A DNA stretch of 64,000 nt from Candidatus Eremiobacterota bacterium (GTDB lineage Bacteria; Vulcanimicrobiota; Vulcanimicrobiia; Vulcanimicrobiales; Vulcanimicrobiaceae): positions 1 through 64,000 of the forward strand of contig JAFAKB010000025.1 in the NCBI GenBank assembly GCA_019235885.1. The letters run 5' to 3'. The translations under genes were made by a program, and so were the position numbers. The notes below the pieces were generated by a model that was given only the letters and a program-made list of their open reading frames with translations, had not been told where the DNA came from and did no database searches. Position 1 is the first letter of the stretch. The number at the start of each line of letters is the position of its first letter. Shown in pieces: positions 16,831 to 48,030 of the stretch.

Positions 16831-17195
16831 CCCTTCGGCCGCGCGGCGATCGCGGTCACTTCGAAGCGCGCGCCGAACAGCAGCGGCCCCGAGCCGAGGA
16901 ACGCGCGCGCCGGGTACGGCCCGTCGAAATAGGTCACGTAGACTTCGTTGAACGGCGCGTAGTCGCGCTCGACGTTCGGCGCGTGGACGGTCACCATCAC
17001 GAGATCGTCCATCGTCAGCCCCTGGCGGCCGAGCACCTCGCGCAGCGCGTTCAGCACGAGGCGAGCTTCCTCGCGCACGTCGGCCGGCGGCTTCGTCGTC
17101 CCACGCTCGAGGCCGATCTGCCCGGCGACGTACACGGTGTCGCCGGCGCGAACCGACTCGCTGAACGGGAGGTTCTTGATGCGTTCGTCAGCCAT
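16827..17195 (-). CDS. RidA-family (YjgF/YER057c/UK114) protein
   Basis: 122 residues. N-terminal SESVRAGDTVYVAGQIGL and C-terminal PARAFLGSGPLLFGARFEVTAIA are the family core. The Arg of the substrate pocket appears in PYPARAFLG. RidA proteins hydrolyse reactive enamine/imine intermediates such as 2-aminoacrylate; many paralogues lack a known substrate. The start overlaps the end of the antiporter gene by eight bases, so it is the last gene of a sirtuin-antiporter-RidA operon. It ends in a 4-base stop overlap with the dioxygenase gene. Confidence 0.85.
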   Translation of the reverse strand: MADERIKNLPFSESVRAGDTVYVAGQIGLERGTTKPPADVREEARLVLNALREVLGRQGLTMDDLVMVTVHAPNVERDYAPFNEVYVTYFDGPYPARAFLGSGPLLFGARFEVTAIAARPKG

Positions 17196-18372
17196 GCGCG
17201 GCGGCTTCGCTCCTCGCGCTGGGCTCCCCGCGCGGGTAGAGCCGCGCCAGGACGAGCCCGAGCGGCGCGCCCTGCACGACGACGGTGAAGAGCACGACGG
17301 CGAACGTCGCGTCGATGATCCGCGGCCGGAACGGCAGCGAGTCCGGAAGCGAAAGCGCGAGCGCGAGCGGGAGCGCGCCGCGCATCCCGGCGAGGAAGAT
17401 CGTGATCTGCTCGGCTCGCGCGCGGCTTGCGGCAAGCGCGAGCAGCGCACGCGCGAGCAGCACCGCGGCGAGCGCCGCGGCGACCAGCGCGGGCTCGTGC
17501 GCGATGCGGTCAGGTCGAATGACCAAGCCGGTCGCGATGAAGACGACCGCGTTCGCGACGAACGCCAAGCCGGCCCACACGTGGTCGACCTCGTCTGCGT
17601 TGGTGATCGCGCGCGGCATTCGCGCGACCATCGCGCGCAGCGCGATCGCGCCGGCCGCGGTGGCGAAGATTCCCGAGCAGTGCAGCGCGTACGCCGCGAT
17701 GTACGCGCCGTACGCGAGCACGATCGTCACGGCCGCCTCGTACTCGGCGGCTCGCGTCGCGCGCAGCACGCCCGCGCACAGCGCGCCGAACGCAACGCCG
17801 ACCAGCGACCCGCCGGCGATCTCGAGCGCGCCGAAGAGCACGTCGGAGCCGATCGAGCTCGGCGCGCCGGCCGCGAACGGCAGCGCGAACGCGAACAGGA
17901 TCAGCGCGATCCCGTCGTTGCTGAGCGACTCGCCTTCGACCAGCGTGCGCAGGTCGGCCGGGACGCGCACGCGGCGGAACGCCGCGACGACGGCGACCGG
18001 GTCGGTCGCCGCAACGATCGCGCCGAACAGCAGCGCCGGCGCGAACGGGAGCGCGCGGGCGAGCGCCACGCCGCCGGCGACGATCAGCGCGGTGAGCAGC
18101 GTACCCGGGACGGCGAGCAGCGCGATGCGCGCCGCGGTGCGGCGCAGCGCGTCCAGATCGAGATTCCACGCCGCCTCGAAGATCAGCGGCGGGAGGAACA
18201 CGAACAGCAGCGTGTCGCCGAACGCGAACGGCGGCGGAATCTGAAAGAGCGCGCCGATCGCGACCAGCGCGACCGCCGCCGGAACGCGCACGCGCTCGGC
18301 AAGGATCGCGATCAGCACCGCGGCGGCGAGCAGCGCGACGAACGCGCCGACGCCGTGCGCGACCTCGTTCAC
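17188..18372 (-). CDS. CPA1-family Na+/H+ (cation:proton) antiporter
   Basis: About 394 residues with 11-13 membrane helices. Ion-binding motifs of NhaP/CPA1 carriers are present: ATDPVAVVAAF and the GESLSNDGIALILF segment with the conserved Asp. The GTG start overlaps the sirtuin stop (GTGA). No large cytosolic tail, so about the minimal CPA1 length. Function: exchange of Na+ or K+ for protons, pH and salt homeostasis in the inner membrane. Confidence 0.88.
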   Translation of the reverse strand: MNEVAHGVGAFVALLAAAVLIAILAERVRVPAAVALVAIGALFQIPPPFAFGDTLLFVFLPPLIFEAAWNLDLDALRRTAARIALLAVPGTLLTALIVAGGVALARALPFAPALLFGAIVAATDPVAVVAAFRRVRVPADLRTLVEGESLSNDGIALILFAFALPFAAGAPSSIGSDVLFGALEIAGGSLVGVAFGALCAGVLRATRAAEYEAAVTIVLAYGAYIAAYALHCSGIFATAAGAIALRAMVARMPRAITNADEVDHVWAGLAFVANAVVFIATGLVIRPDRIAHEPALVAAALAAVLLARALLALAASRARAEQITIFLAGMRGALPLALALSLPDSLPFRPRIIDATFAVVLFTVVVQGAPLGLVLARLYPRGEPSARSEAAAHG

Positions 18373-19118
18373 CGCGCCAGCTCGGGGAGCACGTCCGACG
18401 CGCGCGCGCGGATCGAGCGGTCGGCGTGCGCGGTGAGCGCCGTCTCTTCGGGATTGATCTCGACGACGTACGCGCGCGTGCAGCGCTTCGTCGCGAGCGA
18501 CGCGGCCGGCTGCACCATTCCCGACGTGCCGACCACGAGCATCAGCTCGGCGCGCGCCGCCGCGGCGAACGCCGCTTCGAGCACGCGCGGCGGAAGCGCT
18601 TCGCCGAACCACACGATGTCGGGCCGCCACATCCCGCCGCAGTCGTGCCCGAGCAGCGCGCGGTCCGCGGCCGCGACGTTTTCGCCGAGCTCGGCCAGAA
18701 CGTCGTCGAGCGGGCGGCGGGCGTCGCAGCGGCTGCATTTCGCCTCGCGCATCTTGCCGTGCAGTTCCAAGACGTTGCGCGAGCCGGCGCGCAGGTGGAG
18801 CGAGTCGACGTTCTGCGTCGCCAGCGTGAAGTCGGGAACGCGCGCTTCGATCGCGGCCAGCGCGACGTGCGCCGGCGACGGCTCGACCGCGGCGTGCGCG
18901 CGGCGCCGCTCGGCGTACCAGCTCCACACCAGCAGCGGATCGCGCGCGAAGCCTTGCGGCGAGGCCAGCTCTTCGACCCGGTGCGTGCGCCACAGCCCGC
19001 CGACACCGCGGAACGTCGGCAGCCCGCTCTCGGCGGAGATGCCGGAGCCGGTGAGCACGCACACGCTGCGCGCCGCGCCGAGGCGTGCGCGCAGATCGTC
19101 CGGTTCGGTCACCGGCAT
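18369..19118 (-). CDS. Sir2-family NAD-dependent protein deacylase (CobB-like)
   Basis: 249 residues. GSGISAESGLPTFRG binds NAD, TQNVDSLHLRAG follows, and the catalytic His is in ELHGKM. WYAERRR carries the Tyr/Arg pair that selects acidic acyl groups in class III sirtuins (SIRT5/CobB), so desuccinylase/demalonylase activity is plausible. The zinc site is incomplete: CSRC is present, but the second pair reads LLGHDCGG with only one Cys. ATG at 19118 chosen for length and motif position. First gene of the operon with antiporter and RidA. Confidence 0.88.
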   Translation of the reverse strand: MPVTEPDDLRARLGAARSVCVLTGSGISAESGLPTFRGVGGLWRTHRVEELASPQGFARDPLLVWSWYAERRRAHAAVEPSPAHVALAAIEARVPDFTLATQNVDSLHLRAGSRNVLELHGKMREAKCSRCDARRPLDDVLAELGENVAAADRALLGHDCGGMWRPDIVWFGEALPPRVLEAAFAAAARAELMLVVGTSGMVQPAASLATKRCTRAYVVEINPEETALTAHADRSIRARASDVLPELAR

Positions 19119-19183
19119 CCGTTCGGCGCCCCGGGACGTTACCCCGGCGAGGTGACCGCCGTGACGACGCGAAGGCCCGGGCG

Positions 19184-33750: not shown

Positions 33751-33878
33751 CTGCTCGCCGGTGTGGCGCGCCGGGTCGCCGACCGGCCGTTGGGAAAAAA
33801 GTCCCACGACGTTCGGGCCGCCCGCCTTGTGAACGGCGCCACTCGCCTCGGAACATGGAGGAAAAAGGAGTTTGCTCC

Positions 33879-34262
33879 ATGCCTTCCTTTCCGGCTGCGG
33901 CGTTGCCGGCATTCGCGCAGGTCAGCGGCGTCGAACCGATCCGGCGTTCCGACGAGCACGGCGGCCACGGGCCGATCGTCTTCCGGCGGCTGCTGACGCA
34001 GCGCGACTTCGCCGCCGCGGTCGACTTCGTCGACGTGACGACGATCCCGGCCGGCAGCACGATCGGGACCCATCGCCACGACCGCAACGAGGAGCTCTAT
34101 TTCGTCCTCTCTGGCGAGCCGCTCGTCGAGGTCGACGGCGACGCCAGGCGGCTGCGGCCCGGTGACGTTGCGATCGTTCGTTCGGGGGGCCGTCATTCGC
34201 TCGTCAACGACACCGCAGCCGACGTGACGATCGCGGTGATTCAGCTGCCGGTCGGCACATGA
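33879..34262 (+). CDS. Cupin-domain protein, first gene of the cyclitol-type operon
   Basis: 127 residues; AAGGAG lies eight bases before ATG 33879 (an in-frame ATG at 33855 is the alternative). Single cupin with metal motif 1 GTHRHDRNEELYFVLSG and motif 2 PGDVAIVRSGGRHSLVND. It overlaps the cyclase gene by 4 bases (ATGA). Cupins in sugar pathways act as epimerases, isomerases or dioxygenases; here it may isomerise a keto-cyclitol or regulate entry, an inference from position. Confidence 0.8.
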   Translation: MPSFPAAALPAFAQVSGVEPIRRSDEHGGHGPIVFRRLLTQRDFAAAVDFVDVTTIPAGSTIGTHRHDRNEELYFVLSGEPLVEVDGDARRLRPGDVAIVRSGGRHSLVNDTAADVTIAVIQLPVGT

Positions 34263-35404
34263 ACGTCTCCGCGGCGGACCTGGCGCGAGCGCGTGCGACC
34301 GGGACGAGCTACCGCGTCGAAGTCGAACGCCGGATCGCCTACGAGGTTCGCGAGACGATCGGCTCGGCGTTCGACCTCGCGGATTCGAGCCTTGCCGACG
34401 CGCTGGAAGGCCGGCCCGTCTTCGTCGTCGTCGACCGGCGCGTCGACGCAATCTACGGCACCGCGCTGCGCGCGTACGCCGCCACGGCGCTGCGATGCTT
34501 GGCGATCCATCCGCTGCACGCCGTCGAGACGACGAAGTCGCTTTCGTCGGTCGAGTCCCTGTGCGCCGCGATGCACGCGGCGGGTTTGCCGCGCGAGGGC
34601 GTGCTGCTCGCGGTCGGCGGCGGCGTGACGCTGGACCAGGCCGGCCTTGCCGCGGCGCTGTACCGGCGCGGCGTGTGCTACGCGCGGCTGCCCACGACGC
34701 TGGTCGGGATCGTCGACGTGGGCGTCGGCATCAAACAAGCCGTCAACGCCGAGGGCGGCAAAAGCTTGATCGGCGCGTTCTACCCGGCGTACGTCAACCT
34801 CACCGATACGACGTTTCTGGGCTCGCTGCCCGAGCCCGCGATCGCGTGCGGGATCGCGGAGATCGCGAAGATGGGGATGATCTGCGACGCACGGCTCTTC
34901 GAGCTGCTCGAACGTGACGGCGCCGATCTGCTGGCGTCGCGCTTTCAGCACCATCCGTCGGCCCGCGAGGTGATCGCGCGCGCGCAAACGACGATGATCG
35001 ACGAGTTGCGCGAGAATCTCTTCGAGGACGACCACGCGCGCTTCGTCGACTTCGGCCACACGTTCAGCCCCGCGCTCGAAGCGCGCACGGGGTATCAGCT
35101 CGCGCACGGTGAGGCGGTCGGCGTCGACATGGCGCTCGCCACCGCGATCGCGGTCGAACTGAACCTCTGCGAGGCGGCGGTGCTTGGGCGGCTCGCAGCC
35201 TTGCTGCGCGCGGCCCGTTTGCCGGTCGTTCACGACGCGCTTGAGCTGGAGCTTGCGCTGGAAGCGCTGTCGGCTGCGCGCGCACATCGCGGCGGCGCGC
35301 TGAACCTCGTCGTTCCCCGGCGGGTCGGTGCGGTGACGTTCGTGCAAACGGTCGAGCCGGCGCTGCTCGCGGCGGCGCTCGCGCGGGTGCGCTCGGCCGC
35401 GTGA
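34259..35404 (+). CDS. Sugar phosphate cyclase, EEVS-type (sedoheptulose 7-phosphate cyclase-like)
   Basis: 381 residues, dehydroquinate-synthase fold. NAD loop GGGVTLD at about 119, then YRRGVCYARLPTTLVGIVDVG and GIKQAVNAEGGKSLIGAF; zinc ligands Glu201 (GIAEIAK), His267 (FGHTFSPALE) and His283 (AHGEAVG). DHQ synthase normally has GGKTGVN and GHTFGHAIE; the YRRG, LVGxVDxGVGxK and HTFSPALE forms are typical of 2-epi-5-epi-valiolone synthases (AcbC, ValA) and relatives. Expected product is a C7 cyclitol from sedoheptulose 7-phosphate. Exact subclass (EEVS, EVS, DDGS) needs a tree. Confidence 0.85.
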   Translation: MNVSAADLARARATGTSYRVEVERRIAYEVRETIGSAFDLADSSLADALEGRPVFVVVDRRVDAIYGTALRAYAATALRCLAIHPLHAVETTKSLSSVESLCAAMHAAGLPREGVLLAVGGGVTLDQAGLAAALYRRGVCYARLPTTLVGIVDVGVGIKQAVNAEGGKSLIGAFYPAYVNLTDTTFLGSLPEPAIACGIAEIAKMGMICDARLFELLERDGADLLASRFQHHPSAREVIARAQTTMIDELRENLFEDDHARFVDFGHTFSPALEARTGYQLAHGEAVGVDMALATAIAVELNLCEAAVLGRLAALLRAARLPVVHDALELELALEALSAARAHRGGALNLVVPRRVGAVTFVQTVEPALLAAALARVRSAA

Positions 35405-36363
35405 CCGTTCTCGCCGCAGATCTCGGCGGGACGTGGCTGCGCACCGCGGTGCTGGACGGCGACGCGCTGCGCGGCGTTCGCCGGCGGCGGCTGCGCACGG
35501 TGTTCGACGGCCGCAGCGCGACGGAGGTGTGGGACGACGTCGTCGACGGCATCGGCGCCGCCGCGCGCGGCCACGCGGCGCGGAGCGCGGAGCGCGTCGC
35601 GATCGCGTTTCCCGGGCCGCTCGCCGCCGGCGTCCCGCTCGCCGCGCCGACGCTCACGGGAGACGTCGGCGTACCGGCGGACCTCGTCGCGCGCATCGCC
35701 GACGCGACAGGGAAACGGGTCGCGCTGATCAACGATGTCGCCGCCGCGGCGGCGTTCTTGGCGACGCGCACCGCCGACCGTGACTTCTTCGTGGTCACCG
35801 TCAGCAGCGGCATCGGCAGCCGCGTCCATCGCGGCGGCGCGGCGCCCGCGCGCGCCGGCTACGACGGTGAGATCGGCCACCTGCGCGCCGATCCGCGGCC
35901 GGATGCGCCGCGCTGCGACTGCGGCGGCCGCGGCCACCTCGGCGCGCTCGCCTCGGGCCGCGCGGTCGAACGGCTCGCTCGCCGCGCCGCGCGCGAAGAT
36001 CCGCAGGCGTTCGCGGCGTCGGCGTGCGCGCGCGCCGGCGCCACCGCCGAGACGCTTTCGAACGAGCTGCATCTCGTCCCGGCGATGCTCGCGGGCGACG
36101 GGTGGAGTCTGGCGCTGTTGCGCCGGGCGACCGCGCCGCTGGCGCGGTTCGCGCTCGCGGTCGTCGTCGCGGGCGGGCTCGAACGCATCTACGTGATCGG
36201 CGGTTTCGCGGTCGCGCTCGGCGAGGTCTATCGCGACGCGCTGACGGCGGAGATCGAAGCGCTGCTCGACTCGCCGGCGATCGCGCTCGACCCGCGCGAG
36301 CTCGTCCGCGTCGTCGATCCCGGAACGGAGGCGGCCCTGCGCGGCGCCGCGCTCGCCGCGTGA
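35401..36363 (+). CDS. ROK-family sugar/cyclitol kinase
   Basis: 320 residues. ATP-binding LAADLGGTWLRTAVLDG, mid-domain NDVAAAAAF with catalytic Asp, EIGHLRA, and the ROK zinc motif CDCGGRGHLGALASG with two Cys seen. ROK kinases phosphorylate glucose, ManNAc, allose or cyclitols; AcbM and ValC of acarbose and validamycin pathways are kinases of this kind acting on C7 cyclitols. GTGA overlaps on both sides place it between cyclase and nucleotidyltransferase. Confidence 0.85.
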   Translation: MTVLAADLGGTWLRTAVLDGDALRGVRRRRLRTVFDGRSATEVWDDVVDGIGAAARGHAARSAERVAIAFPGPLAAGVPLAAPTLTGDVGVPADLVARIADATGKRVALINDVAAAAAFLATRTADRDFFVVTVSSGIGSRVHRGGAAPARAGYDGEIGHLRADPRPDAPRCDCGGRGHLGALASGRAVERLARRAAREDPQAFAASACARAGATAETLSNELHLVPAMLAGDGWSLALLRRATAPLARFALAVVVAGGLERIYVIGGFAVALGEVYRDALTAEIEALLDSPAIALDPRELVRVVDPGTEAALRGAALAA

Positions 36364-37094
36364 GCGAGGTCGCGCTGTTGATGGCCGGGGGCCGCTCGGA
36401 GCGCATGCGCGCCGCCGCCGGCCCGCGGCACAAAGCGCTGACCGAGGTCGGCGGCCGCACCTTGATCGAGCACAACACAGCGCAGCTGCTCGATGCCGGC
36501 TTCGAGGAGATTGTCGTCGTGCTGGGCGCCGGCGAAGCGGAGCTCGCCGCGTTCGTCGACGAACGCATCGTGCCGTTCGCGCGAGCGCGCAGAGCGCGGA
36601 TACGAACCGAGATCGAGGCCGTGCCGCTGGGAAACATCGGTTTCGCCGGGACGTTCGCCGCGTCCGCCGGCGACGTGCTCGTGGTGTACGTCGACAATCT
36701 GTGCGCGCTCGACCTGCGCGAGCTGCTGGCGTTCCATCGCCGGGAGCGCTGCGACTTGACAATCGCGACGCACGAAGAGGCGTTCCCGATTCCGTACGGC
36801 GAGCTCGACGTGCGCGACGGCCGGGTCGTCGGCTATCGCGAGAAGCCGCGGCTGCGCGTGCGCGTCTCGAGCGGGACGTGCGTCGCGGGTCCCCGCGCGC
36901 GCGCGCTGATCGCGCCCGGCCGCAAGCTCGACGCGCGCGATCTCTTCGCGCTCGTCACGGCGGCCGGCCTCACGGTCGGCGCGTTCGAGCACGACGCCGC
37001 CTGGGTCGACGTCAACGATCCGGCCGCGGCGCGCCGCGCCGAAGAGCTCCTCGCCGCCGATCCGCACGCCTTCCGGACGGTCGTGCGCGCATGA
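36360..37094 (+). CDS. NTP-transferase (sugar/cyclitol-1-phosphate nucleotidyltransferase-like)
   Basis: About 244 residues. N-terminal LLMAGGRSERM followed by HKALTEVGGRTLIEHN is the nucleotide-binding signature of the NTP_transferase family, with VVYVDNL as the metal-binding Asp region. Length corresponds to the catalytic core without a left-handed helix domain. In cyclitol pathways (ValB, AcbR) such an enzyme makes NDP-cyclitol. GTG start overlaps the kinase stop. Confidence 0.82.
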   Translation: MSEVALLMAGGRSERMRAAAGPRHKALTEVGGRTLIEHNTAQLLDAGFEEIVVVLGAGEAELAAFVDERIVPFARARRARIRTEIEAVPLGNIGFAGTFAASAGDVLVVYVDNLCALDLRELLAFHRRERCDLTIATHEEAFPIPYGELDVRDGRVVGYREKPRLRVRVSSGTCVAGPRARALIAPGRKLDARDLFALVTAAGLTVGAFEHDAAWVDVNDPAAARRAEELLAADPHAFRTVVRA

Positions 37095-38284
37095 GCCGCC
37101 GCATCTCGATCCTTTCGATCGCCAACGACGTCCCGCACGGCGGCGACGAGAACAGGCTGCTCTCGTTCTCGCAGCACATCGACCGCGATCGCTTCGACCA
37201 CCACGTCGTGATCGTCAAAGCCGCCGATCCGGCGATCGACGCGCGGTTCGGGACGCTGCGCGGGGAGTTTCGCGCGCGCGGGATCCCGCTGATCGAGCTG
37301 GGGATGCGGCGGCCCGGACACGCGGTCGGTTCCGACCGGCTGCGCCGTCTGCCGCACGCCGCCGCAACGTTCGCGCGCAGCGTCGCGAAGCTTTCGCGGC
37401 TGGTGCGCGAGCTGCACGTCGACGTTCTCGACGGGCACATCGGAACCGGAAACCAGCTCGCGGTCGCCACCGGCTTCACGACGCGCAAACCGGTGGCGGT
37501 GACGACGTACCACGCCGAAGTCTTCACCCCGCGCTGGCTGTGGTATCCGGTGCAGCAGGCGACGCTGCGCGGCGCCGACGTGATCATCACCGATTCGCAT
37601 CAGCGGGCCGACGCGATGCGCGGCTTCCTGCGCGCGCCGCGCGCGCCGATCGAGATCATTGCGAACGGAATCGACGCCGAGCCGCCGCGCCGTCCGGCGG
37701 CGGAGGTTGCCGCCGAGCTCGGCATTCCGCCCTCGGCGATCGTCGTCGGCCAGATCGCCGGGATGGTGCCGACGAAAGGCTGGGCGCCGCTGATCGAAGC
37801 GGCGGCGCAGGTGCTCGCGCGCGATCCGCGCGCGTTCTTCCTGTGCATCGGCCACGATCGCTACGCGCCGTGGTTTCGCCCGCAGCTGCAGGCTCGCGCG
37901 GAGGAGCTGGGCATCGCGGACCGCATTCGTCTCGTCAGCTATCCGGGGCACAATGCCGACGTGTGGCAGCTCTTCGACGTGCACGTCCACGCCTCGCTGT
38001 TCGACTCGCTGCCGAATGCGATCATCGAAGGGATGGCGTACGGGAAACCCGCCGTCGTCACCGACGTGGGCGACTGCGCGCGAACCGTGATCGACGGCGT
38101 CTCTGGAATCGTCGTCCCGCCGAACGATCCGTCCGCGCTGGCCGGCGCGCTGTTGCGCATGCTCGCCGATCCGGCGCTGCGCGCGCGCTGCGGCGCCGCG
38201 GCGCGCGCACGCTACGAACTCGGCCACCGCCCGGAAGTGATGACCGACGGTCTGCAGGCGCTCTTCGAGCGGATGGCGGCGTGA
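37091..38284 (+). CDS. GT4-family glycosyltransferase (GT-B fold)
   Basis: About 397 residues. N-terminal domain with NDVPHGGDENRLLSF and a donor-site half with GQIAGMVPTKGWAPLIEAA, HASLFDSLPNAIIEGMAYGKPAVVTDVG, the E-x7-E retaining GT4 motif. Likely cytosolic, joining the activated sugar or cyclitol to an acceptor. ATGA overlap with the nucleotidyltransferase and GTGA with the next gene. Confidence 0.87.
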   Translation: MSRRISILSIANDVPHGGDENRLLSFSQHIDRDRFDHHVVIVKAADPAIDARFGTLRGEFRARGIPLIELGMRRPGHAVGSDRLRRLPHAAATFARSVAKLSRLVRELHVDVLDGHIGTGNQLAVATGFTTRKPVAVTTYHAEVFTPRWLWYPVQQATLRGADVIITDSHQRADAMRGFLRAPRAPIEIIANGIDAEPPRRPAAEVAAELGIPPSAIVVGQIAGMVPTKGWAPLIEAAAQVLARDPRAFFLCIGHDRYAPWFRPQLQARAEELGIADRIRLVSYPGHNADVWQLFDVHVHASLFDSLPNAIIEGMAYGKPAVVTDVGDCARTVIDGVSGIVVPPNDPSALAGALLRMLADPALRARCGAAARARYELGHRPEVMTDGLQALFERMAA

Positions 38285-39189
38285 GAACGTTCGTCTCGGG
38301 AGCGGGCGGTTTCATCGGCCGCGCGGCCGTGCGCGCGCTGGCGCGCCGCGGCGACGAGGTGGTCGCGCACGTCGGCCCGCCGGGCTGCGGTCTGACGGTG
38401 CCGCCCGAAGCGGTCGCGTCGCTCGAGTTCGAGCTCGGCGACCCGCGCGATCTCGCACCGTTGCTGCGTGACTGCGACGCGGTCGTGCACCTCGCCGGAC
38501 CGGCGTCCGTCGTCGCCTCGTTCTCCGATCCAGACGGATATCTGCGCGCGCACGCGCTCGGCACCGCGGCGCTGATGCGGGCAGCCGCCGGCGTCGGCGT
38601 ACCGCGCTTCGTCTACGTCTCGTCGGCCGAGGTGTACGGACGAACCCGCGCCGCGCGCGTGCGGGAGGACGCTCCGTTGCAGCCGCGCTCGCCGTACGCG
38701 GCGGCGAAGGTCGGCGGTGAAGCCGCCGTCGGCGCCGCGGCGCGCACGAGCGGAACGAGCGCCGTGATCCTGCGGCCGTTCTCCGTCTACGGCCCGGGGC
38801 AGCGCGCGGCCTCGCTGCTCGCGACGATCCTCGCGCAAGCGGTCCGCGGAGAGCGCGTCGCGGTCCGCGATCTCGCGCCGGTGCGCGATTACTGTCACCT
38901 CGACGACGTCGCGAACGCGATCGCGCGCGCGTGCGAGGTCCGCGTCGATGAGGTCGTCGCATTCAACGTCGGCACCGGCGTCCCGACGAGCGTGGGCGAG
39001 CTCATCGAGGAAGTCTTCGCCGCGTTGGGCCGCCCCGGTTCGTACGAGGAGCTGGGCGCCGACCGCGGCGCCGCGGAGATCTTTCGCCTCGTCGCCGATC
39101 CCGCGCAGGCCGCGGACGCGCTCGGCTGGCGCGCCGAGATCGCGTTGCGCGACGGAATTCTGAGCGCGCTCGAAGCAGTGATCGCGTGA
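38281..39189 (+). CDS. NAD-dependent epimerase/dehydratase (extended SDR) A
   Basis: 302 residues. GAGGFIG nucleotide loop, catalytic SSAEVYG and SPYAAAK (Tyr-x3-Lys), RPFSVYGPGQR substrate segment. Typical of UDP-glucose/GlcNAc 4-epimerases and related sugar dehydratases. Tailoring role inferred from position in the operon. Confidence 0.85.
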   Translation: MRTFVSGAGGFIGRAAVRALARRGDEVVAHVGPPGCGLTVPPEAVASLEFELGDPRDLAPLLRDCDAVVHLAGPASVVASFSDPDGYLRAHALGTAALMRAAAGVGVPRFVYVSSAEVYGRTRAARVREDAPLQPRSPYAAAKVGGEAAVGAAARTSGTSAVILRPFSVYGPGQRAASLLATILAQAVRGERVAVRDLAPVRDYCHLDDVANAIARACEVRVDEVVAFNVGTGVPTSVGELIEEVFAALGRPGSYEELGADRGAAEIFRLVADPAQAADALGWRAEIALRDGILSALEAVIA

Positions 39190-40238
39190 GCGAGACGCTG
39201 CTGCTGACCGGCGCGCAAGGATTCGTCGGCCGCTGGTTCGCCGCCGCATCGGGTTTCGGGCGCGTCGTCGGAGTCGGCCGTTCGCCGCGCCGCGCGAGCT
39301 TCACCCACGAGGCAACGCTCGGGCCGCACCGCGTGACCGCGCCGCTCCCGTCCGCGCTGCGCTCCGCACCCCAGACGGAGTACGTGAGCTGCGACGTCCG
39401 CGACGAGCACGCGCTGATCGCCTTGTTGCGAACGGAGCGCCCGCACGCGATCGTACACCTCGCCGCGGCGCTCCGCGACGATCCGCCGAGCGCGCTCTTC
39501 CCCGCGAACGTCGACGGCACGATCGCGCTGCTGCACGCCGTCGCGTGCAGCGGCGTGCGCGTCGGGCGGATCGTGCTCGGATCGAGCGGCTCGGTCTACG
39601 GTGCGCCGCAGCGGCTGCCGGTGCGCGAAGACGACGGCGTGAACCCGCCCGACCTCTACGCCGTCAGCAAGCTCGCCGCGGAGTGGTCCGCGCACGTCCT
39701 CGCGCGCGAGCTCGGTCTTCCGCTCGTCGTCGCGCGCATCTTCAACGTCGTCGGACCCGGCCTGGACGAACGGCACGCGTGCGCGCGCTTCGCCTCGCAG
39801 CTCGCCGCCGCCGCGCACGGCTACGCCGAGCGCGTCGTCGTCGGCGACCTCAGCCCGACGCGCGACTTCGCCGACGTGCGCGACGTCGCCGCGGCGCTCG
39901 CGATCCTGGCGCGGCGCGGCGCCGCCGGCACGACCTACAACGTCGCGAGCGGCCGCGAGACCGCGCTGCGAGAGGTGTTCGAGATACTGCTCGAGCACAG
40001 CGGGGCCGGCGAACGGGTCGAGGTCGTGCGCGGGTACCGGCGCGCGGCCGACTGCCCGCGCGTCGTCGCCGACGTCGGCCGCCTCGCGCAGCTCGGCTAC
40101 GCACCCGCGCACGCGCTGAGCGGCTCGCTCGCCGACCTGTACCGGTATTATGCGGACGACGTCGCGCGCGCGGTCGCAGCGGCGCCGACGAACGGCGCCA
40201 ACCGCGACGCGATCGCGGCGGACGCGACCCACGGATGA
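39186..40238 (+). CDS. NAD-dependent epimerase/dehydratase (extended SDR) B
   Basis: 350 residues. LTGAQGFVGRW loop, SSGSVYG, YAVSKLAAEW (Tyr-x3-Lys) and RIFNVVGPG; closest in style to GDP-mannose 4,6-dehydratase/RMD. Last gene of the seven-gene unit. Its final 91 bases overlap the 3' end of the convergent GH4 gene, an unusually long tail-to-tail overlap. Confidence 0.83.
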   Translation: MSETLLLTGAQGFVGRWFAAASGFGRVVGVGRSPRRASFTHEATLGPHRVTAPLPSALRSAPQTEYVSCDVRDEHALIALLRTERPHAIVHLAAALRDDPPSALFPANVDGTIALLHAVACSGVRVGRIVLGSSGSVYGAPQRLPVREDDGVNPPDLYAVSKLAAEWSAHVLARELGLPLVVARIFNVVGPGLDERHACARFASQLAAAAHGYAERVVVGDLSPTRDFADVRDVAAALAILARRGAAGTTYNVASGRETALREVFEILLEHSGAGERVEVVRGYRRAADCPRVVADVGRLAQLGYAPAHALSGSLADLYRYYADDVARAVAAAPTNGANRDAIAADATHG

Positions 40239-41398
40239 GCGGCTAACACGCCCGTGATCGCGGCATCGTCGCGCGCCACGACGGCATCCGCGGCGAGCGC
40301 CTCGTACGAGATCAGCGCGCGCAGCATCGCCGCGATCGCGGGCGGAGGCGCGTGGGTCGGCTGCGCCACGAACGCGCCGTCGCGAACGACGTGCGGAACC
40401 TCCACGACGTCGTCGCGGGAAAAGCCCTCGAGATACCCGGCGTTGCGAACGGTGAGAAAGAAGACGTCGTCCGAGCTCCCGTCGATCGCCGCGCGGATCC
40501 ACGGTGCGACCGCGCGCGGGTACCAGGGCGCCGGCCGCCGCGTGAGCGCGCTGCGAATCGCCGCCGCGTCGCCGCGTTCGAACGCGTCGTACGCGGCGGC
40601 GGCGATCTCCGCGAGCACCGCAGCGCGCGCCGTTGCCGTTCGCTGCGCCGCGCGCTGCTCGGCGACGACCGCGTCGCGCTCGTCCTGCAATCGCACGTAG
40701 GGCAACGGCACGGTCCGCGTCGCGCGAATCGTGGCCGCGCTCGGATAGGACGCGTTCTCGCGCGTCGCCGCATACGCTTCGACGAGGTCCTCTCCGGCGC
40801 GCTCGAGCGAGGTGAACCAGCCGAGATGGTTCACGCCCGCATAGCGAAAGGCGATCGGCTCCGCGACCCTCACCGCTGCGGCGATCTCACCGAGCACGAC
40901 CGCCGGCAGCTCACACAGCCCGGCGACGTCGAGCTCGGGAAACGCGGCGAGCGCGCAGCGCGTCAGGATGCCGAGCGGAGCCGTCAACAGCGCGACGCGC
41001 GCCTGCGGTGCCTCCGCTGCGACGGCCGAGAGCACGTCGTGCAGCGCAGGCCACGAACGCCACGCTGCGGCGAGCCCGCCCGGCCCGAGCCCTTCGTCGC
41101 CCGGAATCCCCTCGGCGAGCGGAAACGACTCGTCGTGCGCGCGCGCCGCCAACCCGCCGGCGCGCAGCTGCACGACGATCAGCGCTGCACCGTTGAGCGC
41201 CGCGCGCAGGTCGGTCGTGGTCGACAAGCGAGAGGCAAGCATCGGTTCGAGGACGACGGCGGCGCGGCGAACCGCGTCGAGACGGCGCGCGTCGCGGCCG
41301 TGAAGCACAAAGCTGAGCCGCGAATCGCGTGCAAGCCGCGGCTCGGCGAGCAAATGCGGCGTGCTCGGCGCGCTGCCGCCGACCACGACAACCTTCAC
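40148..41398 (-). CDS. GH4-family NAD/metal-dependent glycosidase-like protein
   Basis: 416 residues from GTG 41398. N-terminal Rossmann start KVVVVGGSAPSTPHLL, then LLTAPLGILT where GH4 usually has a TNPxGxxT segment (Asn replaced), GLCE with the metal-binding Cys, and AGVNHLGWF with the metal-binding His. GH4 enzymes open glycosidic bonds of 6-phospho-sugars by an oxidation-elimination route using NAD+ and Mn2+. Convergent with the operon, so it could degrade or recycle the product or supply a sugar; inference only. Confidence 0.75.
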   Translation of the reverse strand: MKVVVVGGSAPSTPHLLAEPRLARDSRLSFVLHGRDARRLDAVRRAAVVLEPMLASRLSTTTDLRAALNGAALIVVQLRAGGLAARAHDESFPLAEGIPGDEGLGPGGLAAAWRSWPALHDVLSAVAAEAPQARVALLTAPLGILTRCALAAFPELDVAGLCELPAVVLGEIAAAVRVAEPIAFRYAGVNHLGWFTSLERAGEDLVEAYAATRENASYPSAATIRATRTVPLPYVRLQDERDAVVAEQRAAQRTATARAAVLAEIAAAAYDAFERGDAAAIRSALTRRPAPWYPRAVAPWIRAAIDGSSDDVFFLTVRNAGYLEGFSRDDVVEVPHVVRDGAFVAQPTHAPPPAIAAMLRALISYEALAADAVVARDDAAITGVLAAHPWVASAAIASRLAPFVGAAATARATSSA

Positions 41399-45858: not shown

Positions 45859-48030
45859 TTAGACCCCGCCTCCGACCCGCATGAGATATTTCACGATCCA
45901 GCGGTCCAGCGTCGAGGTGGCGGCGGGCGTCCCGTAGTTCACGAAGAGCTCGTTGCCGTTCGCGAACTTCTTGCGCAGCGAAGCTGCCAAATTTCTGCCG
46001 GGGGACGCGAAGCCGCCCCGCCCGCTCACGTCGCGGTAGGCGATGCTGGCGTTCCCGTCGCGCCCGAACGGGACGGCAAGCGAGAGCCGGCGCAGCCACT
46101 GCCCGTCGCTGAAGCCCGAGTACGCGGCCTCGCGCGTCCCCGCGTAGTCGAACGAGAGGCTCGCCGAGCCGAGCGCGCGCGTCAGCGTCGTCGTCGTCTG
46201 GTGAAGCTGGAACGGCCCGAACGGTCCGGCCTGGTAGTCGGTGCGGATCGAGCTCGGCGTTCCCTCGCCCAAACCGATTCCCGCGCTCCAGGTCTTGAAC
46301 GGCAGCAGCTGCTGATCGCGGTAGCCGTGCGTGCCGCCGGAGAAGTAGTCGCCTTCGTACGTGCGCTGCGAGCCGACTTGATCGTTCAGGTACAGCGCGA
46401 GCTTCGAGCGCATCCGCAGCGTGAGGTACGCGTCGGCGTCGCTCTCGTGCACGTTTCCTTGCCGGTCGAGCCAGCGGTCCCAGTACAGATACAATTCCGC
46501 ATTCTTCACCGGACCGCGCTTCGGCGAGCGGGTGAGATCGAGTGAGAATTCCGGGCCGCGCACGTCGGCGATGTTGGTGAAGCCGTCGACCGGCGCGTAC
46601 CATGGCCCGACGTCGAGCCACGTGAGGTTCGCCTCGAGACCGGGTTTCTGTATGTCGATGAACGCCGCGTTCTTCTGCGCCTCGCCCGCGCTCGGCACGA
46701 ACGTTCCCGTCTCTTGCGCGTGCATCGCGGAATAGACGAGCCCGCTCGCGAGCGAACGGCCGAAGCCGCCGATCTCCCACGAGCGGTCCTCGCCGTTCGA
46801 GTGCGCGGCGTTCACGCCGTCGATCCAGTAGCCGAACGTGTTGTCGGGCCGGCGGTGCTTGAACCCGAACGCGAGGTCGTCGAAGAGCATCCCGGTCTGC
46901 GGGTTCGTCCCGCGCACTTCGAGCGCGCCGAACGACTCGGAGCCTTTCGTGCCGACCAGCTTGAGCCCGCGGTCGAACGGCCCGATCGCGGGCGAGTAGA
47001 ACAGCACCTCGTTCGGAAGGTTCAACTCGAAGCCCTCGAGCGCGGGGTTGACGTACGGCGCGCCTTGCGCGAAGAACGGCCGGTACTCGGTGAACGCGCG
47101 GCGGAACTGCTGCGGCGCGATCGTCTGCTGGTCGACTTCGACGTTCGAGAAGTCGGGCGAGAACGCGCCCACGAACGTCGTCGTCGCGTCGATCGGAATC
47201 GCGACGTCGGCGCCGGCGGTGCGCGGCGTTTGGCGCACCGTCGCGCCGGACGGCACGGTGAACGAGCTGCGGTCGGTGCCGGCGCTTTCGAGCAAGAACG
47301 CTTCGGCGCGCGGCTTCGGCGGCGGGACCGCGCCGCTCAGCGATACGCCGCGGACGCTCGGCCAGAAGCGCCAGTCGAAGCCGAGGTTCGGCCAGCCCGG
47401 AATCGCCTGGTACGCCATCAGCGGAGCGTACGCGAGCGTTTCGTGCTCGGCGCTCGCCGCGACGTTTCGCACGACGTTGATCTTCCACTTCTGCGGGCCG
47501 TTCGCGGCGAGCTTCAGCGCGCCGTACGGGATGCGCAGCACCGCGTTCCAGCCGTCGGCGGTTGCCTTCGCGACCGCGCTCCACTCCGGCTTGTAGCGCG
47601 CGGTCTCGCTGGCGAACGCATAGCGCGTCCCGCGCGGCGTCACCGCGAACATGTACGCGCGCCCGCCGTTCCCGGTCACGTCGAGCAGGACGGCGACGAA
47701 GTCGTCGGTGCCGTAGCCGACGTCGTCGGTCGCCTGCGTCGCGACGAGCGGCGTCTTCTGCTCCGCTCGCACGCCGACGTACAGCGCGCGGTCGTCGTAC
47801 CACAGCGAGACCGCCGTGGCGACGCCGGCCGGTGACTTCGAGCCCAGATCGAAGAACGGCCCGGTCAGCGCGCCGTCGGCCCAGCGCGGGTCGCTCAGCG
47901 AGGCGTCGAGCGGGAGCGGCGTCGCCGCGCGCCGGACCTCGACCCGGTCGGCCGGCGCGAGCGAGACGGCCAGCGCCCCCGGCGGCAGAGCGAGCACGAG
48001 GACCGCGCCCGCGATGAGTCGGCGAAGCAT
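45859..48030 (-). CDS. DUF5916 protein: CBM9-like domain plus outer-membrane beta-barrel-like region
   Basis: 723 residues with signal peptide (LRRLIAGAVLVLALPPGALA). Residues about 35-230 resemble the carbohydrate-binding module 9 domain found at the N-terminus of DUF5916 proteins (DASLSDPRWADG; ALYVGVRAE). The rest is rich in alternating aromatic/hydrophobic strands (LYLYWDRWLDRQGNVHESDADAY is one stretch, trimmed) compatible with a barrel. It supports a diderm envelope. Proposed role: outer-membrane binding or uptake of glycans; DUF5916 itself is uncharacterised. Confidence 0.75.
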   Translation of the reverse strand: MLRRLIAGAVLVLALPPGALAVSLAPADRVEVRRAATPLPLDASLSDPRWADGALTGPFFDLGSKSPAGVATAVSLWYDDRALYVGVRAEQKTPLVATQATDDVGYGTDDFVAVLLDVTGNGGRAYMFAVTPRGTRYAFASETARYKPEWSAVAKATADGWNAVLRIPYGALKLAANGPQKWKINVVRNVAASAEHETLAYAPLMAYQAIPGWPNLGFDWRFWPSVRGVSLSGAVPPPKPRAEAFLLESAGTDRSSFTVPSGATVRQTPRTAGADVAIPIDATTTFVGAFSPDFSNVEVDQQTIAPQQFRRAFTEYRPFFAQGAPYVNPALEGFELNLPNEVLFYSPAIGPFDRGLKLVGTKGSESFGALEVRGTNPQTGMLFDDLAFGFKHRRPDNTFGYWIDGVNAAHSNGEDRSWEIGGFGRSLASGLVYSAMHAQETGTFVPSAGEAQKNAAFIDIQKPGLEANLTWLDVGPWYAPVDGFTNIADVRGPEFSLDLTRSPKRGPVKNAELYLYWDRWLDRQGNVHESDADAYLTLRMRSKLALYLNDQVGSQRTYEGDYFSGGTHGYRDQQLLPFKTWSAGIGLGEGTPSSIRTDYQAGPFGPFQLHQTTTTLTRALGSASLSFDYAGTREAAYSGFSDGQWLRRLSLAVPFGRDGNASIAYRDVSGRGGFASPGRNLAASLRKKFANGNELFVNYGTPAATSTLDRWIVKYLMRVGGGV

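Follow-up and report, generated by a model that had tools for sequence, protein, structure and literature searches.

We analysed a 64,000-nucleotide stretch of DNA from a Candidatus Eremiobacterota bacterium (assembly GCA_019235885.1, contig JAFAKB010000025.1, positions 1 to 64,000; hereafter the window), in which positions 33879-40238 of the plus strand carry an operon of seven genes built around a sugar phosphate cyclase. Together with an eighth gene it forms a candidate pathway for a C7-cyclitol glycoside. A Shine-Dalgarno-like AAGGAG (33865..33870, plus strand) lies 8 bases upstream of the first ATG. The plus strand then encodes a cupin of 127 amino acids (33879..34262) with HxH...E and H...N metal-binding motifs (Pfam Cupin_2, 9e-16; best match in the Protein Data Bank (PDB) 1o4t), followed by a cyclase of 381 amino acids (34259..35404; Pfam DHQ_synthase, 5e-29, and DHQS_C), which we describe as an EEVS-like sedoheptulose-7-phosphate cyclase after 2-epi-5-epi-valiolone synthase (EEVS). 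The third gene encodes a ROK-family kinase of 320 amino acids (35401..36363; Pfam ROK, 4e-22), a candidate cyclitol 7-kinase with a role like that of AcbM or ValC. The fourth product is a sugar-1-phosphate-type nucleotidyltransferase of 244 amino acids (36360..37094; Pfam NTP_transf_3/NTP_transferase), whose PDB matches are hexose-1-phosphate cytidylyl- and guanylyltransferases, and the fifth a GT4 glycosyltransferase of 397 amino acids (37091..38284; Pfam GT4 domains, with GT4 enzymes as PDB matches). Two extended short-chain dehydrogenases/reductases (SDRs; Pfam Epimerase, 3e-47 and 2e-41 for the two) complete the operon: SDR1, of 302 amino acids (38281..39189), resembles 4-epimerases and 4,6-dehydratases of nucleoside diphosphate (NDP) sugars, and SDR2, of 350 amino acids (39186..40238), has GDP-4-keto-6-deoxyhexose reductases as nearest solved relatives.

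Consecutive genes are joined by six 4-base overlaps, ATGA or GTGA (34259-34262, 35401-35404, 36360-36363, 37091-37094, 38281-38284 and 39186-39189). A first, sequence-only reading of this DNA had described seven overlapping genes of these families as a pseudosugar pathway, and we confirmed by sequence and Pfam the coordinates, the overlaps and every family assignment. The G+C content of the window is high and gives many long overlapping open reading frames (ORFs), so that genes were told apart by family matches and conservation. The seven genes stand, but an eighth conserved gene had been overlooked, and it alters the chemistry to be expected. It lies on the minus strand (40148..41398) and encodes an NAD- and metal-dependent enzyme of 416 amino acids of the glycoside hydrolase family 4 (GH4) type, with PF02056 and PF11975 both above cut-off. 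It is convergent with the operon, its 3' end overlapping that of SDR2 by about 90 bases.

The metal ligands E201, H267 and H283 are invariant in the cyclase and place it, with its dehydroquinate (DHQ) synthase (DHQS) fold, in the sugar phosphate cyclase superfamily. The motifs singled out by the sequence-only reading (YRRG, LVGIVDVGVGIK and HTFSPALE) are all present. DFGHTFSPALE stands in place of the NxGHTFGHxxE of DHQS, with Asp264 for its Asn and Pro271 for its second His, and a second member of the family, encoded on another contig of the same genome, has the DHQS residues. By sequence, the best PDB match is the EEVS ValA (220 bits), before desmethyl-4-deoxygadusol synthase (DDGS, 176), the DHQS of V. 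cholerae (135) and 2-deoxy-scyllo-inosose synthase (DOIS, 98). The structure prediction that had been proposed as a check gives the same ranking: the AlphaFold model (predicted local distance difference test, pLDDT, 93.9) is closest in fold to ValA (template modelling score, TM, 0.91 at 1.5 A), then to DDGS (0.90 at 2.0 A), DHQS reaching about 0.8 and DOIS coming at rank 47. The proposed phylogeny also agreed with the prediction that the cyclase would not cluster with true DHQ synthases: in trees of 70-82 sequences, built without references for 2-epi-valiolone synthase (EVS), AcbC and DOIS, DHQS and the cyclases of the sedoheptulose-phosphate type are split at 100% in the Shimodaira-Hasegawa-like approximate likelihood ratio test (SH-aLRT). 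Thus sequence and model both point to a window cyclase of the sedoheptulose-7-phosphate kind rather than a DHQ synthase.

Asp264 and His343 correspond in the alignment, with numbering checked, to D281 and H360 of ValA, where DDGS has A268 and T347. From ValA structure work we take these two sites to separate EEVS from DDGS. Fingerprint sites of such kind are mentioned in PMC4426668. 2-epi-5-epi-valiolone (EEV) is the likely product. We nevertheless name the cyclase EEVS-like and not EEVS, because the EEVS residues are present but it does not group in the tree with characterised EEVS. Of the earlier claim of an EEVS-type cyclase, the part that sets the enzyme apart from DHQS therefore stands, on the best match to ValA in sequence and fold, on D264/H343, on the full split in the tree and on the separate DHQS of the genome, while the EEVS clade label is unproven. 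The clade that does contain the window cyclase has 12 members (SH-aLRT 99), from Eremiobacterota, Acidobacteriota, a Syntrophaceae metagenome-assembled genome and one further bacterium.

Two observations on related cyclases may be added. At five loci (L034 10355-11203, L035 2457-3281, L036 8942-9397, L037 10456-11199 and L047 8071-8982) the cyclase has an N-terminal extension of ~150-300 residues, fast-evolving and without Pfam match; the window cyclase has no such extension. A low-confidence model of it (pLDDT 57) resembles actin-fold proteins of the ROK/hexokinase type (Mlc, ManNAc kinase), and the extension, fused to the cyclase, may represent a kinase domain that has degenerated. A different cyclase, from the same Eremiobacterota family and 34% identical to that of the window, lies on a 5.3-kb contig (L039 of genome G116, 1755-2918); in the tree it belongs to the side of ValA, and it has Tyr where the window cyclase has Pro271.

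Five further genomes of the phylum have homologues of the window cyclase at 46-54% identity. A profile search gave none in the ten genomes that make up the rest of the window's genus. The gene set is kept at seven loci in six Eremiobacterota genomes. At all seven the ROK kinase gene directly follows that of the cyclase, as it does in many other phyla, and the nucleotidyltransferase-GT4-SDR block is near the cyclase at most of them, sometimes divergent. Conservation of the gene order in relatives had been expected, failing which the pathway would have counted as refuted; both content and order are conserved, and the seven-gene arrangement is therefore not due to chance.

GH4 is likewise present at the seven loci. 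Its profile was run against 149 genomes of the phylum; 117 of them represent the window's family, order and class (families f1-f3), and among these 117 the search found GH4 in 6/6 genomes with the cyclase and in 0/111 without. The chance of hitting the same six genomes would be 3e-10 if genomes were independent, which they are not, so that this figure stands for strong linkage and not for a probability. In most relatives the GH4 gene lies directly behind the kinase gene, as at L034-L038; with ROK first, the two share a strand at these loci and, in genomes treated below or in the Acidobacteriota search, at L045, L046, L081, L086 and L164.

The nearest PDB relatives of the window GH4 protein are 6-phospho-beta-glucosidases. 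With BglT of T. maritima (1UP4-1UP7) and with 1S6Y it shares the fold family, the N-terminal Rossmann GGS/GGG, the metal Cys and His and the catalytic Tyr. Its Cys162, His191 and Tyr234 align with Cys162, His192 and Tyr241 of BglT, which are the metal ligands and the catalytic base of GH4. Membership in the GH4 fold with its catalytic set is thus complete, and the catalytic Cys/His/Tyr are intact in the other cyclase-linked GH4s too. It differs from BglT and 1S6Y, besides its genomic tie to cyclases, in three motifs (CNVP to CELP, QET to DE(G/T) and NP to AP). In 15/15 cyclase-linked GH4s, CE[L/V]P takes the place of the CNVP of BglT and its relatives (Glu163 for Asn in the window); QET gives way to a DE motif (Asp101 for Gln); and NP becomes AP or SP within the window's own GH4 group (Ala140). 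The CN and NP motifs that mark the substrate site of GH4 6-phosphoglycosidases are therefore missing, Glu163 and Ala140 standing in their place. The 15 cyclase-linked GH4s form a single clade (SH-aLRT 100) apart from 16 other GH4s.

GH4 glycosidases cleave 6-phosphohexosides through oxidation by NAD, elimination, addition of water and reduction (PMC10628242). A hexose 6-phosphate has its carbocyclic analogue in a C7-cyclitol phosphorylated at position 7, and the adjoining kinase belongs to a family that makes such 7-phosphates in acarbose and validamycin biosynthesis; we therefore propose action of the GH4 enzyme on a cyclitol phosphate. Judged from the sequences, it is possible, although we put it forward tentatively, that this GH4 clade was recruited from glycoside cleavage into biosynthesis, to carry out redox-elimination on 7-phosphorylated C7-cyclitols (dehydration/reduction or epimerisation) in a carbasugar pathway present in at least four phyla.

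Beyond Eremiobacterota, scanning 84,980 species genomes with a profile gave 115 relatives, of which the best 80 loci were kept; the window cyclase as a single-sequence query of genome contigs gave no match. The gene set recurs, whole or in part, in Acidobacteriota, Myxococcota and Pseudomonadota. GH4 is linked to the cyclase in a member of Terriglobia (L045), in Acidobacteriaceae (L046), at L164 from the Acidobacteriota search, in Chromatiaceae (L081), Methylobacterium variabile (L086), Geminicoccaceae (L079) and a gammaproteobacterium (L101), in Myxococcota (L050, and as a fragment in L052) and in one further bacterium (L051). L045 has the cyclase, kinase, GH4, nucleotidyltransferase, GT4 and both SDRs, and L081 has the same genes in a different order. 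In the recovered genomes of L047 and L048 no GH4 was found. The Acidobacteriota search gave a match at or below 1e-100 in 2/396 genomes. This patchy distribution suggests transfer of the set as a block. Searches of plasmids with tblastn returned for the cyclase at best 42% identity over 74% (Streptomyces clavuligerus) and for GH4, among the matches listed, ordinary 6-phospho-beta-glucosidases at <=29%.

A compact core of cyclase, cupin and ROK kinase with no linked GH4 is widespread in Bacilli (L053, L054, L060, L075, L095) and Streptomyces (e.g. L068, L105). In the main Streptomyces group Arg and not His occupies the position of His343, and to judge by this residue these cyclases may make another product.

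We consider it fairly probable that the eight genes of the window belong to a pathway for a C7-cyclitol glycoside, whose substrates, order of steps and product we infer as follows. By ring closure the cyclase would turn sedoheptulose 7-phosphate into a ketone of the valiolone type, with 2-epi-5-epi-valiolone as the likeliest, and the ROK kinase would phosphorylate this ketone, most likely at O-7. There is precedent for such activation of C7-cyclitols by a kinase and a nucleotidyltransferase, as the sequence-only reading had assumed: the ROK kinases AcbM (acarbose) and ValC (validamycin) make C7-cyclitol 7-phosphates, and ValB and AcbR make GDP-valienol; a glycosyltransferase role likewise has its precedent in both pathways (PMC9200736). 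The cupin, where present, is a candidate epimerase/isomerase that would epimerise C2, next to the ketone. In acarbose biosynthesis, once O-7 is phosphorylated, AcbL removes water and AcbN reduces the ketone (PMC9200736); these two enzymes have no obvious counterpart in the set unless an SDR serves. The GH4-type enzyme could replace them: with bound NAD and a metal held by Cys and His, it would transiently oxidise the 7-phosphocyclitol and bring about an elimination, possibly with Glu163 as a new acid, leaving a cyclitol phosphate that is unsaturated or reduced. The nucleotidyltransferase would activate C1. Given their family likenesses, SDR1 and SDR2 may then tailor the NDP-cyclitol or a partner sugar. 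The GT4 enzyme would finally form the (pseudo)glycosidic bond, with the NDP-cyclitol as donor or with the cyclitol being itself glycosylated.

Several points weigh against this C7-cyclitol glycoside pathway. Acarbose biosynthesis has to move the phosphate to C1 before activation, for which it needs a kinase acting at C1 and a phosphatase acting at C7 (AcbU and AcbJ; PMC9200736), and the set contains no C1-kinase, no 7-phosphatase and no phosphomutase. The cupin gene is found at four of the seven Eremiobacterota loci and is absent at three. It adjoins the cyclase gene at L034, L035, L036, L046, L047 and L049, and no close cupin homologue was found in genomes G109, G052 and G043. The acidobacterial locus L049, a near relative of L046, carries all the other members while its genome has no GH4; in GH4's place, after the kinase gene, stands a Gfo/Idh/MocA oxidoreductase (a family assigned via homologues), which indicates that GH4 is replaceable. 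Finally, the clade of the window cyclase falls outside the clade that joins ValA with DDGS (SH-aLRT 99), and its product could differ from that of ValA.

This last point supports another C7 product of sedoheptulose 7-phosphate, such as 2-epi-valiolone or an undescribed isomer, that the rest of the pathway would handle. Residue 160 (codon 34736-34738), which follows the conserved K159, points the same way: compared in the window cyclase and 66 relatives, 17/17 GH4-linked cyclases have Gln, His, Gly or Cys there and 43/50 others have Thr. However, this pattern amounts to three or four independent pairs, and both the EEVS residues D264 and H343 and the best fold match to ValA speak for EEV, so that we hold a different C7 product to be rather unlikely. 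Co-evolution of residue 160 with GH4 was dropped as a candidate (non-Thr in 17/17 versus 7/50, a striking difference, but just 3-4 independent pairs). The approximately unbiased test neither establishes nor rejects one common origin for all GH4-linked cyclases (p-AU 0.205).

The GH4 enzyme might also be an ordinary catabolic phosphoglycosidase that lies beside the operon by chance, or one that recycles the finished glycoside. The family is one of glycosidases, and in the window the gene is convergent and outside the operon. Its occurrence in the 117 genomes strictly follows that of the cyclase, though, its gene stands after the ROK gene on the same strand at the ten loci listed above, and the cyclase-linked enzymes form their own clade with altered active-site motifs. 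We accordingly judge this explanation unlikely, although the enzyme may have a recycling role.

The operon has the cyclase, kinase and nucleotidyltransferase of a C7N-aminocyclitol cluster and no aminotransferase. The sequence-only reading had noted this and proposed a non-aminated product. This is true of the operon but not of the system: DegT-type aminotransferase genes lie in or beside the clusters L035, L036, L045, L046, L049 and L050, most with a Gfo/Idh gene and several with a NUDIX gene, and L081 has a DegT gene alone, with neither Gfo/Idh nor NUDIX. Within the stretches read, none was seen at the window, L033, L034, L037 and L038. An aminocyclitol whose aminotransferase is encoded elsewhere gains some credit from these related clusters and from five DegT genes on other contigs of the window's genome; the window lacks, together with DegT, the Gfo/Idh partner found in those clusters, which makes this explanation improbable. 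For the variant of the window a non-aminated product is a fair guess. As to a DHQ synthase paralogue of primary metabolism, NCBIfam aroB is the best model in that library, though below cut-off (212 of 305 bits), and we rejected this explanation as extremely improbable given the lost DHQS residues, the split in the tree and the second DHQS in the genome.

A polymeric product had also been suggested. The flanks of L034 and L038 carry further glycosyltransferase genes, and that of L038 also an O-antigen ligase-type (Wzy_C) gene, a weak hint that the cyclitol may end in a polysaccharide in some relatives; the flanks of the window's own operon give no such hint. They encode a peptide-binding protein, an enolase-family enzyme, a product reading as undecaprenyl pyrophosphate synthase, BipA and a Clp ATPase. 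Elsewhere in the window two long ORFs of coding-like composition, at 45862-48030 (minus strand, 723 amino acids) and 17137-19152 (plus strand, 672 amino acids), have no Pfam match.

C7-cyclitol pathways yield drugs and crop protectants such as acarbose and validamycin, and those characterised are mostly from Actinobacteria. The present set extends them to Eremiobacterota, a poorly known phylum, and to Acidobacteriota, Myxococcota and Pseudomonadota. If the proposal made for GH4 is true, it adds a new activity to a glycosidase family whose unusual redox mechanism suits a cyclitol phosphate well. Pseudosugar pathways that combine a sedoheptulose-phosphate cyclase, a ROK kinase and a nucleotidyltransferase are already known; within the literature searched, the novelty lies in the host phyla, in a cyclase clade of its own and in the presence of GH4 and a cupin. 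No paper was found that links either GH4 or a cupin to valiolone; the searches did not extend to subscription papers and we claim no priority.

Among known systems, the ebo operon is likewise an uncharacterised operon around a non-DHQS sugar phosphate cyclase, EboD (PMC5133447), but its partners are a UbiA-type prenyltransferase, a metallo-hydrolase and a xylose-isomerase-like protein, with no kinase, nucleotidyltransferase or glycosyltransferase of the window's kind. Acarbose biosynthesis (AcbC, AcbM, AcbO, AcbL, AcbN, AcbU, AcbJ, AcbR, AcbS) has, like the window set, a cyclase of the sedoheptulose-7-phosphate kind, a ROK-family kinase (in acarbose a 7-kinase), a nucleotidyltransferase (in acarbose one for a cyclitol) and a GT-B-type transferase (PMC9200736). 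The window has instead a cupin and GH4 where AcbO and AcbL/AcbN act and a GT4, not a GT5, enzyme; its set has no second kinase or phosphatase, and its operon no aminosugar genes. Validamycin biosynthesis (ValA, ValC, ValB, ValL/VldE) shares the ROK kinase and the nucleotidyltransferase, and ValA is the nearest solved structure to a cyclase that comes from another clade; the window operon differs in having neither a GT20-type pseudoglycosyltransferase nor an aminotransferase. For the kind of product, the precedent is streptol, a C7-cyclitol without amination that the leaf-nodule symbiont of Psychotria derives from EEVS (PMC8599487) and that also occurs as a glucoside (PMC12411853).

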